Shown: positions 4,712 to 11,767 of the stretch, piece by piece
How positions within the stretch are numbered: position 1 is the stretch's first letter
Layout of the letters: every line of letters begins with the position of its first letter
Assembly (NCBI GenBank): GCA_030425785.1
Contig: JAUHYJ010000016.1
Location: 1-15,903, forward strand
Length of the DNA stretch: 15,903 bases
Reading direction: 5' to 3'
From: Acidimicrobiia bacterium
GTDB taxonomy: Bacteria > Actinomycetota > Acidimicrobiia > Acidimicrobiales > Ilumatobacteraceae
Notes under the pieces: generated by a model
Databases searched by the model: none
What the model saw: the letters and a program-made list of their open reading frames with translations, nothing else
What the model was told of the DNA's origin: nothing
Translations under genes and position numbers: made by a program

Positions 4712-4895
4712 TCCGGTGTCGGCGGCGTCCTGGGCGCAGCGGCGCACTGGGGCGACGTGTGGCCCGAGCCGCTGACCATCGTCGTGCTGGTCGCACCGAG
4801 CGGGGCGGGCGTGCTCGGCCAGCTCGCCCAGCTCAGCGTCGGCTGGTCCGACTCCAAGCGGAGCGCGCCGGCCGCCGCGGGTACGTTGGGGCGCG
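4712..4895. other. Spacer between the Nudix and K+ channel genes
   Basis: This is 184 bases without a convincing gene. The frame of the Nudix gene stays open after its stop (a GTG at 4757 could begin a peptide), but the peptide has no recognisable domain and the frame simply runs on as an out-of-frame reading of the channel gene. Only the promoter motif at 4882-4887 is identifiable. Confidence 0.5.
4882..4887 (+). promoter_or_regulatory. Probable -10 element (TACGTT) of the K+ channel operon
   Basis: TACGTT followed by eight bases (GGGGCGCG) and then the ATG at 4896. Sequence and spacing are nearly identical to the eno promoter. This suggests a leaderless transcript for the channel–HAD–membrane protein operon. 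Confidence 0.55.
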
Positions 4896-5888
4896 ATGAG
4901 GTCGACGATCGGGCGTCTGCGACTCGCGGTGGCGATGGTGCTGACGGTCTTCGTCGTCGGCACCATCGGCTACGCGGCCTTCGGGCTCTCGGTGCTCGAC
5001 GCGATGTACATGACGATCACGACGATCACGACGGTCGGCTTCCGCGAGATCATCGGACCGGACGTCACCAACGCCGAGAAGCTGTTCACGATGGCGATCA
5101 TCGTCACCGGTGTCAGCACCGTCCTGTACACGTTCACGCTCGGCGTGCAGGTCGTGGTCGAAGGTCAGTTGCGCGAGTTCGTGGGGAGGAGACGAATGGA
5201 CAAGCAGATCGCCGACATGCGCGGTCACGTCATCGTGTGCGGATGGGGCCGCGTCGGCAAGGCGGTGGCAGGCGACCTGCTCGCCGCCGGCCGCCCGGTC
5301 GTCGTGATCGACGTGAACGAGGAACGCATCCGCAGCATCGACGTCCCGACCGTGGTCGGCGATGCGACGCTCGACGCCACCCTGCGCGCCGCGGGGATCG
5401 AGCACGCCACCTCGCTCGTCGCGGCCCTCGAGGGCGACGCCGAGAACCTGTTCGTCACCCTGTCGAGCAAGGCCATCAATCCCGGGCTGTTCATCGTCGC
5501 CCGCGCCCGCCAGGAGGAGAGCGTCGACAAGCTCAGCCGCGCGGGCGCCGACCGGGTCGTCAACCCCCAGGAGCTGGGCGCCGCGCGCATGGCGTCGTTC
5601 GTCGTGCAGCCGAACGTGGCCGAGTTCGTCGACGTCGTCATGCACGAGCGCTCGATGGACTTCCGGATGCAGGAGGTCGACATCCCCGACGACTCGCCGC
5701 TCGCCGGGCAGTCGCTGCGGGAGGCCAACCTGCGCGAGCAGGCCGGCGTGCTCGTGCTCGCGTTGCGCGGTGACGACGGCGTGTTCACGACCAACCCGGC
5801 CCCCGACACGGTGCTGCACCCGCACAACGTCGTGATCGCCGTCGGAACCACCGATGCCCTCGACCGGCTCGTGAAGGTCGTGCAGTGA
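4896..5888 (+). CDS. Two-TM potassium channel with cytosolic RCK (TrkA-N/TrkA-C) domain
   Basis: A 330-residue K+ channel of the MthK-like architecture. TM1 is at about residues 8-30, the pore helix and filter at 33-52, and TM2 at 62-88. RCK-N starts at 110 with the Rossmann motif G116-W-G118-R-V-G121 and acidic D139 after the second strand (VVVIDVNEER). An RCK-C domain occupies about 250-330. It would conduct K+ across the plasma membrane, gated by a nucleotide or ion bound to the RCK ring. The filter reads TTVGFRE at residues 45-51, with Arg50 where classical channels have the second Gly of TVGYG. Met101 is preceded by an internal Shine-Dalgarno, suggesting a second product made of the RCK domain alone (see the internal RBS entry). 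The stop overlaps the GTG of the HAD gene by 4 bases. Confidence 0.93.
   Translation: MRSTIGRLRLAVAMVLTVFVVGTIGYAAFGLSVLDAMYMTITTITTVGFREIIGPDVTNAEKLFTMAIIVTGVSTVLYTFTLGVQVVVEGQLREFVGRRRMDKQIADMRGHVIVCGWGRVGKAVAGDLLAAGRPVVVIDVNEERIRSIDVPTVVGDATLDATLRAAGIEHATSLVAALEGDAENLFVTLSSKAINPGLFIVARARQEESVDKLSRAGADRVVNPQELGAARMASFVVQPNVAEFVDVVMHERSMDFRMQEVDIPDDSPLAGQSLREANLREQAGVLVLALRGDDGVFTTNPAPDTVLHPHNVVIAVGTTDALDRLVKVVQ
5183..5198 (+). promoter_or_regulatory. Internal ribosome binding site and in-frame ATG (Met101) inside the K+ channel gene
   Basis: GGGGAGGAG at 5183-5191 is a perfect anti-16S match four bases before an in-frame ATG at 5196. It spells Gly-Arg-Arg-Arg with AGG and AGA codons, which are rare in such GC-rich genes (neighbouring Arg codons are CGC/CGG/CGT). 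The product from Met101 would be a ~230-residue soluble RCK protein. MthK is known to produce its free RCK domain from an internal start at Met107. Confidence 0.7.
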
Positions 5889-6574
5889 CCGGTTCCGAAC
5901 GCACCCACGTCCTGCTCGACCTCGACGGCACCCTGTCGGACTCCGAGCCGGGGATCATGCGGTCGCTGCAATGGGCCTGCGAGCAGGAGGGCTTCCCGAT
6001 CCCGACCGAGGCGGAAGTGCGGTCGGTGATCGGACCGCCGTTCGAGATCGGCCTCCCGTCGATCGGCATCCCCGACGATGCGCTCGAACGGGTCATCAAC
6101 ACGTACCGCAGCCGATACGAACGGATCGGCGCCTTCGAGAACACCCTGTACGACGGCATCGTCGAGATGCTCGACGCGATGGCGGCGTCCGGCCTGTCGC
6201 TCTCGATCGCGACGGCCAAGCCGGAACAGACCGCGCACCCGATCCTCGACTACTTCGAGATCAGCGGCCGGTTCGAGGTCCGGGCCGGGGCGACGATGAC
6301 GTCCGAGCGTCGCACGAAGGCCCAGGTCATCGACCACGCGCTGCACGAGCTCGGCATCTGGGGTCACCCCGATCTCGAGGCGATGGTGATCATGGTCGGC
6401 GACCGCGACCACGACGTCCACGGGGCGATGCACCACGGCATCCCGTGCATCGGCGTGCGTTGGGGCTACGGCTCGATCGAGGAGCTGCTCACGGCCGGCG
6501 CCGTCGCCATCGCCGACACCCCGGCCGACGTTGCGGCGATGGTCGCCGAGCCGTACCGTTTGATCCGCTCATGA
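5885..6574 (+). CDS. HAD-superfamily hydrolase, phosphoglycolate phosphatase-like
   Basis: A 229-residue HAD phosphatase with all four motifs: I, D12-L-D14-G-T (nucleophile and acid/base); II, Thr110 in SIATAKPE; III, Lys145 in ERRTKAQ; IV, G172-D173-R-D-H-D177. A helical cap domain at about residues 20-90 places it in the Gph/PGP-like C1 group. It should hydrolyse a small phosphate monoester such as phosphoglycolate or a nucleotide, but the natural substrate is not evident. The GTG start lies in the 4-base GTGA overlap with the channel stop, and the TGA overlaps the next gene's ATG (ATGA), so it is the middle gene of a translationally coupled operon. Confidence 0.92.
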   Translation: MTGSERTHVLLDLDGTLSDSEPGIMRSLQWACEQEGFPIPTEAEVRSVIGPPFEIGLPSIGIPDDALERVINTYRSRYERIGAFENTLYDGIVEMLDAMAASGLSLSIATAKPEQTAHPILDYFEISGRFEVRAGATMTSERRTKAQVIDHALHELGIWGHPDLEAMVIMVGDRDHDVHGAMHHGIPCIGVRWGYGSIEELLTAGAVAIADTPADVAAMVAEPYRLIRS

Positions 6575-10172: not shown

Positions 10173-10913
10173 TCAGTGCTGCAGGATCTTGTCGAAGAAC
10201 GCCTTCGTGCGCGCTTCGCGCGGATGGTCGAAGATCTGGTCCGGCGTTCCCATCTCGACGAAGACACCCTCGTCGATGAACACGACCCGGTCGGCAGCGG
10301 CCCGGGCGAACCCCATCTCGTGGGTGACGACGACCATCGTCATGCCGGCCTTCGCCAGCTCGAGCATCACGTCGAGCACCTCTTTGACCATCTCGGGGTC
10401 GAGCGCGCTGGTGGGCTCGTCGAAGAGCATCACCTTCGGCCCCATGGCGAGCGAGCGGGCGATCGCCACCCGCTGCTGCTGGCCACCCGACAGCTGGCGC
10501 GGATACGAGCCGGCCTTCTCCGGAATCCCGACCCGGGTGAGCTGGCGCATCGCCTCGACCTCGGCCTCCTCCTTCGAGCGCTTGCGCACCTTGCGCTGGG
10601 CGAGGGTGATGTTGTCGAGCACGGTCAGATGCGGGAACAGGTTGAACTGCTGGAACACCATGCCGGTCTCGGCTCGCATCCGGTCGAGGTTCGCGTCCGG
10701 CGCGGTGACGTACTCGCCGTCGATACGGATCGCTCCCTCGGTCGGGATCTCGAGCATGTTGAGGCACCTCAGCACCGTCGACTTGCCGCTCCCCGACGGC
10801 CCGACGATCACGACGACCTCCCCGGGCGCGATCTCGATGTCGACGCCACGGACGGCGTGGATGTCCTTGCCGAACGTCTTGTGGAGGTTGGTCACCTCGA
10901 TCAGTGGCAGCAT
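10173..10913 (-). CDS. Amino acid ABC transporter ATP-binding protein (GlnQ/HisP-like)
   Basis: A 246-residue nucleotide-binding subunit. Visible motifs are Walker A G38PSGSGKS45, Q-loop Gln88/89 ([16 protein letters not shown], diagnostic for the polar amino acid class), signature LSGGQQQR at 141-148, Walker B VMLFDE at 161-166, D-loop SALDPE and switch His198. It hydrolyses ATP to drive uptake through the permease encoded just upstream. The ATG at 10913 overlaps the permease stop as TGATG, and GGAAGGGAG lies a few bases before it, so translation is coupled. A longer frame upstream is only the permease gene read in another frame. It converges on the binding-protein gene across the hairpin at 10124-10159. 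Confidence 0.97.
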
Positions 10914-11767
10914 CAGCGGGCTCCCTTCCGGTCCTGGCTGAGTCGTCGCTCGACGACCCCGAGGAGCAGGGACAGCACGACCGTGAGCGTGAGGTAGATG
11001 AAGGTGAGGGCCAGGTAGCTGTCGCGGAACTTGAAGCTGCCCGAGGCGTACTGGCGACCGCGTTGGGTGAGTTCGAGCACACCGAGCACCGACAGCAACG
11101 ACGTGTCCTTCAAGATGGCGATGAAGTCGTTGCCGAGCGGCGGCACGACGGCGCGGATGGCCTGAGGGAGCACGATCGACCGGGTCGTCTCGCGCCGGCT
11201 GAGCCCGAGCGACCGGCCGGCCTCGATCTGCCCCCGATCGACCGACTGGATGCCGGCCCGAAAGATCTCTGCGATGTAGCCCGCGTAGATCAGCGACAGG
11301 GCGATGATCGCGCGCCACTCCTGCGGCACACGGTTGGGCTGCCCCAGCGCATCACTCACCGAGGGCACGATCACCAGGGCGATGGTGAAGATCAGCACCA
11401 GGATCGGGATGCCGCGGATCAGCTCGACGTACGAGCGTGCGAGGTTGCGCGCCACCACGTTCTGCGATGTACGTGCGAGCGCGATGACCATGCCGATCAC
11501 GCACGAGATGACGAAGGAGTAGACGGTGGCCTTGACGGTGAGCCAGAGGCCCGGGATGATGCGATCGAACGCGATGTTGTACCCCTCGTTGAACGCGACG
11601 AGCAGACCGAGCACGACGAGCACCACCGCAACGATCACGCCCCACCACGGGAACGTGTCGTACCAGGGGTCGGTGTCGTTCCGATGGGTCCAGCGCGGCG
11701 CCGAGGTGTCCGGTGCCAGATCGAGCGAGGCGGTGTGTGACCGTGACGAGTTGCCGAATGCCGGCAT
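10913..11767 (-). CDS. Amino acid ABC transporter permease (HisM/GlnP-like)
   Basis: A 284-residue inner membrane subunit. A polar 38-residue N-terminus precedes helices at about 42-60, 72-98, 118-136, 152-170, 205-230 and 250-272. The EAA loop that docks the ATPase is clear at 181-202 (EAGRSLGLS … IVLPQ), followed by [18 protein letters not shown] typical of the His/Glu/Gln permease family. [10 protein letters not shown] at 118-127 is also family-typical. Only one permease gene is present, so a homodimeric pore is likely. The start ATG at 11767 has GGGAGGG five bases upstream. It is the first gene of a two-gene minus-strand operon with the ATPase, and divergent from the CoxS-like gene. Confidence 0.96.

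Follow-up and report, generated by a model that had tools for sequence, protein, structure and literature searches.

Does the channel gene at positions 4896–5888 (+ strand) of the window, the whole stretch of 15,903 nt that was analysed, encode one protein or two? The gene has 330 codons and a stop, and the predicted mass of its full-length product is 35.4 kDa. A two-transmembrane (two-TM) pore followed by a single C-terminal RCK domain was supported by Pfam domains (Ion_trans_2, TrkA_N, TrkA_C), a predicted model of the monomer and a fold match to MthK. Pfam placed the RCK N-lobe (TrkA_N) at residues 112–224 (5229–5567, + strand) and the C-lobe (TrkA_C) at residues 259–327 (5670–5876, + strand); with one of each, the protein falls outside the two-RCK (GsuK-type) channels. 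In the model, the TM2 helix spanned residues 59–89, Met101 lay within a helix of residues 91–107, and the first RCK strand followed at 112–115. The GxGxxG motif of the RCK domain was intact. The selectivity filter was non-canonical: codons 46–51 (5031–5048, + strand) encode TVGFRE, in which Arg replaces the second Gly of the canonical TVGYG. Among 221 orthologues, 81 had TVGFRE and 31 TVGYRE. The next ORF (5885–6574), HAD-phosphatase-like by eye, starts with a GTG at 5885 and overlaps the end of the channel gene by 4 nt; the two are therefore probably co-translated. The genome to which the window belongs comprises 4.4 Mb in 857 contigs and is 83% complete.

The question of a second product arises from codons 96–101, which read GTG GGG AGG AGA CGA ATG (5181–5198). 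Codons Gly97–Arg98 form an internal Shine–Dalgarno (SD) sequence, GGGAGG (5184–5189, + strand), which ends 6 nt upstream of an ATG (Met101; 5196–5198, + strand) that is in frame with the ATG at 4896; the site lies between TM2 and the RCK fold. Letter by letter, GGGGAGGAG occupies 5183–5191, followed by ACGA at 5192–5195 and the ATG at 5196–5198. A preliminary description of this DNA had pointed to the SD and the in-frame ATG at this place, after TM2 and before the RCK domain, and its coordinates and frame were correct. It had also called AGG and AGA codons that are avoided elsewhere, in agreement with their share of 9 in 253 Arg codons (3.6%) in the 12 other window ORFs taken as genes; the channel gene has two AGG and one AGA among 25 Arg codons. 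On the basis of its domains and computed mass, the predicted second product (5196–5888, + strand) would be a free RCK subunit of 230 amino acids and 24.5 kDa.

Taken by themselves, the internal SD and ATG are no more than chance would give, and weak evidence without conservation. A comparable SD, defined as at least four matching SD bases at 3–12 nt, preceded 22 of the 213 internal in-frame ATG, GTG or TTG codons in 13 window ORFs, the site at 5196 included, and two of the 213 had one as strong as GGAGG. The 16S tail (GGATCACCTCCTTTCT) was taken from a same-genus genome; a search for 16S in the window's own incomplete genome gave no match. A special RNA structure over the site was considered and rejected, as the folds were weaker than those of most shuffles (z +1.06; 180 of 200 shuffles folded at least as well). 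Rfam at the gathering threshold gave no match anywhere in the window. Elsewhere in the window, a minus-strand ORF at 10173–11318, ABC-ATPase-like by eye, has an internal GTG at codon 170 behind GGGGAGGT, which probably reflects chance or the real start of that ORF.

Orthologues were collected with whole-genome searches in the genus, family, order and phylum and with one scan of named genomes, and 100 further matches (60 + 40) were taken from among the matches listed. The 284 loci yielded 253 with a match at E ≤ 1e-20 across codons 95–115 and 221 after removal of identical stretches, none with a gap at codon 101 (the close, same-genus relative L013 and the locus L059 are one sequence). Nearly all were from Actinomycetota; other record titles named Acidobacteriota (L116), Deltaproteobacteria (L127) and Omnitrophota (L128). 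The sequences were divided into three groups according to how closely they match the window's channel protein (at least 60%, 45–60% and below 45% identity). Since one peptide pattern of the named-genome scan contained Met101, key counts were redone on the 177 sequences from the other searches.

Synonymous codon choice at the SD was nearly fixed. Arg98 was encoded by AGG or AGA in 167 of the 178 orthologues having Arg98 (31/31, 77/86 and 59/61 in order of falling identity), compared with 7.0%, 10.9% and 27.4% of the other Arg codons in the same genes. For the two closer groups, no other column in which half or more of the sequences have Arg exceeded an AGG/AGA fraction of 0.36. The sequences below 45% identity showed raised values at Arg99 (0.56) and at column 230 (0.49), yet far under the 0.97 at Arg98. 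When the sequences were reduced to 108 clusters at 70% identity, AGG/AGA was found in 75 of the 78 with Arg98, whereas the codon usage of the individual genes predicts 11.5 (P about 9e-74, on the only roughly valid assumption of independent clusters). The subset of 177 gave the same picture, with 139/141 at Arg98 versus 699/3733 (19%) elsewhere. Gly97 was GGG or GGA in 95/97 cases, versus 37% of other Gly codons. That the site is a by-product of a conserved Arg-Arg-Arg-Met protein sequence combined with codon habit is therefore scarcely credible: residues R98, R99 and M101 are indeed 90% or more identical in a 41-sequence alignment, and a Met in Kch linkers has been noted before (excerpts of PMC2920069), but the synonymous choice itself is fixed.

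A synonymous-recoding scan along the gene gave a single strong SD peak, at columns 100–103, in all three identity groups. The excess at column 101 was −4.85, −5.06 and −4.24 kcal/mol (all-column means 0.16, 0.04 and 0.00; sd 0.70, 0.64 and 0.50), and RNAduplex against the 16S tail concurred (−4.21 at the site, mean −0.03, sd 0.33). For individual sequences the recoding test was moderate (p < 0.05 in 22/31, 56/96 and 28/94), and the weight of this evidence rests on its repetition across lineages. Orthologues with ATG 101 had an SD of −7.6 kcal/mol or better in 166/193 cases and of −10.9 or better in 106/193; the respective counts for other in-frame ATGs of the same genes (codons 95–110 excluded) were 121/1139 and 25/1139. 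The conservation at the DNA level beyond that of the protein, on which the preliminary description had proposed to judge the site, was thus found. Its proposal that the AGG-AGA pair is kept held for the AGG at Arg98, within GGGAGG, but not for the AGA at Arg99, which was present in only 5/31 close orthologues.

The start codon was conserved together with the SD. Codon 101 was ATG in 193, GTG in 10 and TTG in 2 of the 221 orthologues, giving a start codon in 205 (in the subset of 177, ATG in 155). An SD of −6 kcal/mol or better preceded 196 of these 205 starts, and the other nine had only a weak SD. Among the 16 orthologues without a start at codon 101, 14 had a start with an SD within codons 99–108, where 3.71 were expected; L174 and L283 had no such pair in that range. 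In eight sequences, from three families only, a TTG at codon 102 took over; TTG made up 0–18% of their other Leu codons. Val101 was encoded by GTG in 10 of 16 sequences, and the remaining six had a TTG and SD at 102 or 108, which again argues against a by-product of the protein sequence. The GTG at Val101 is weak evidence on its own, because GTG makes up 41% of the other Val codons, and chance could readily account for several of the relocations when each is taken singly (P 0.44 for L168, 0.60 for L172). An orthologue lacking Met101 had been named beforehand as evidence against an internal start, and one exists: L013 has Asn at codon 101 and a weak SD before it. This close relative, however, carries AGG AGG at codons 103–104, before an ATG at codon 108. 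Taken together, the SD, its spacing and the start codon are kept by selection on the nucleotides and shift together. Two genomes each had two channel paralogues, one with ATG 101 and one with TTG 102 (L252 and L263 in G504; L178 and L273 in G613), which prompts the question whether their rings are mixed. The idea of a separate RCK gene next to that of the channel was considered and rejected: more than one RCK match occurred in 3 of the 221 loci, many of the loci having only short flanks. The three were L170, L173 and L125, and in L125 the two matches are overlapping parts of a single gene.

The same observations bear on the possibility that the SD-like sequence and the rare AGG only pause elongation after TM2, aiding membrane insertion, with no start being used. 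The position directly after TM2 fits such a pause, and it has been proposed, not without dispute, that SD-like sequences within genes slow elongation (excerpts of PMC5100845). Against it, the SD tracks the start codon, and in L013, where Met101 is lost, the SD ahead of codon 101 is weakened and another has arisen in front of ATG 108. Such joint movement of SD and start codon is the strongest reason to doubt that the site does no more than pause ribosomes. A natural control was provided by 16 tandem-RCK paralogues from the same order (four same-genus loci, one of them, L015, shortened by a contig end, and twelve more, with the window's own genome included). GsuK-type channels of this kind share the two-TM pore and the RCK gating ring and differ in having two RCK domains per subunit (PMC3510474, in part). 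The paralogues share TM2 and the Arg-rich linker, yet their linker is mostly encoded by CGN, with AGG/AGA in only 3/73 Arg codons. A start codon just after TM2 (ATG in 15, GTG in L304) lacked an SD in 16/16, and the tandem-RCK loci in the window's own genome (L002/L297) had neither internal start nor SD. A moderate SD (−7.69) was found at one start only, a GTG present in 3/16 genes and located 15 codons downstream of the Arg block. We therefore regard a pause as improbable and favour internal initiation.

How the full-length channel is initiated was examined at the other end of the gene. A −10-like hexamer, TACGTT (4882–4887, + strand), lies 8 nt before ATG 4896, and this, together with the lack of an SD, suggests a leaderless mRNA for the full-length channel. 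The leaderless appearance of this start, remarked on in the preliminary description, was borne out in the family: TANNNT was found 6–9 nt before a candidate start in 29/31 orthologues at 60% identity or more (0.9 expected from shuffling), and an SD in 1/31. The pattern faded with distance, to 18/66 (2.7 expected) and then 7/58 (3.8 expected), and in these more distant groups an SD was present at a candidate start in 12 and 19 sequences, respectively. The leaderless long product thus appears to be a family feature, and the SD-led short product seems to span the phylum sample. A promoter inside the gene, giving a separate short mRNA on which the SD serves the RCK product, would equally explain the SD and ATG and is compatible with the SD data. 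However, TANNNT was less frequent 20–110 nt upstream of codon 101 than expected from recoding (6/31 versus 16.4, 20/95 versus 39.8 and 51/94 versus 55.8), a count that covers the −10 pattern only, and we consider such a promoter very improbable, more so than a pause.

It is highly probable that this one gene gives two proteins, the channel from ATG 4896 and a free RCK regulator from ATG 5196; on the sequence evidence, internal initiation very likely yields a free RCK subunit of 24.5 kDa. The channel would be translated from a probably leaderless mRNA, beginning at ATG 4896, and the regulator from that same message, by ribosomes that the internal SD recruits. Pairing of four free with four channel-attached RCK domains may then build an octameric gating ring, the arrangement proposed for MthK. 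We infer that initiation takes place in the cell and that the product is stable and joins the ring; the ligand would be a nucleotide rather than Ca2+.

CglK of Corynebacterium glutamicum is an actinobacterial two-TM single-RCK channel, like the window channel; work attributed to Follmann in 2009 is said to have found that full-length and separate soluble RCK proteins are translated from its gene and that both are needed. MthK of Methanothermobacter has an internal start at Met107 (Jiang 2002, as described in excerpts of PMC2920069 and PMC9440719). By counting, the His in the first RCK strand comes 10 residues after Met107 in MthK and, equally, 10 residues after Met101 in the window channel. 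The two channels share about 27% identity, and the filter of MthK is TVGYG in place of TVGFRE. Again by counting, the MthK Ca2+ ligands D184, E210 and E212 align with A177, R203 and R205, and column 203 was Arg in 218/221 orthologues. Because residues 177, 203 and 205 are Ala, Arg and Arg, MthK-type Ca2+ gating of the window channel is unlikely. MthK, invoked from the outset as the model, thus remains apt for the architecture (two TM segments, one RCK domain, placement of the Met) but is no guide to the ligand. Another actinobacterial two-TM and RCK channel similar to CglK, MSMEG_1945 (MchK) of Mycobacterium smegmatis, is described as a homotetramer with a TxGYG filter, and no internal start is mentioned in the excerpts of that account (PMC9025972). 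General statements on internally started RCK subunits are found in PMC3510474 and PMC4565861 (both in part). Outside channels, a like logic is seen in cas8b, where an in-frame start inside the gene gives rise to Cas11b, a C-terminal subunit that belongs to the parent complex (excerpts of PMC11899642), although the proteins and the system are unrelated to RCK channels.

The generality of internally started RCK subunits is disputed on account of Escherichia coli Kch (PMC2920069, in part). Kch has more TM segments than the window channel; its RCK domain is likewise preceded by a Met (Met240), for which an AGGA stands at a spacing of 10. Removal of this putative internal start left expression and function unaltered (Kuo 2003, cited in excerpts of PMC2920069), which counts against internal initiation. 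Among other phyla, plasmid genes of Azospirillum argentinense, Burkholderia arboris and Sphingomonas insulae had an ATG in the corresponding position, preceded by GAGGA or GGGAG, and an A. lipoferum gene had a TTG there; no conclusion was drawn, because these are four genes and GAG GAA/GAT are ordinary codons. A Hymenobacter gene (L290) had no start at codon 101, a motif search for the internal site gave no matches in L310–L313, and two haloarchaeal loci (L294, L295) and a Listeria locus (L296) offered nothing usable for this comparison. No count given here draws on a tally of 229 rows in which loci of this sort were included. In Rhodococcus sp. DK17 (L289, 195–614) the channel gene is directly preceded by a universal stress protein gene, as is a channel-like gene in Halorussus vallis (L295, 1–236).

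The principle is already known from the internal start of MthK, and the window channel adds a further case. What appears to be new is the nucleotide-level evidence over a phylum sample, the relocation of the start, the contrast with tandem-RCK paralogues and the pairing of a leaderless with an SD-led product; no earlier report of these (for the first, of nucleotide conservation of the internal SD) was found in the open-licence literature. Two modes of initiation may, as the preliminary description suggested, serve to set the ratio of the two products. Whether selection has put the two products on different initiation routes, so that shifts between leaderless channel and SD-led regulator alter ring make-up and gating, is doubtful on present evidence; if true, cell states that shift leaderless versus SD-led translation would exert translational control of channel activity through one gene. 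The TVGFRE and TVGYRE filters raise the question of ion selectivity in this channel family. Recoded synthetic genes for such channels may silently lose one of two products. Within a single phylum, evolution seems to favour the internal RCK start in many lineages, and where the subunit already has two RCK domains the site is absent; if this reading is true, the free subunit would be a predictable part of single-RCK channels.
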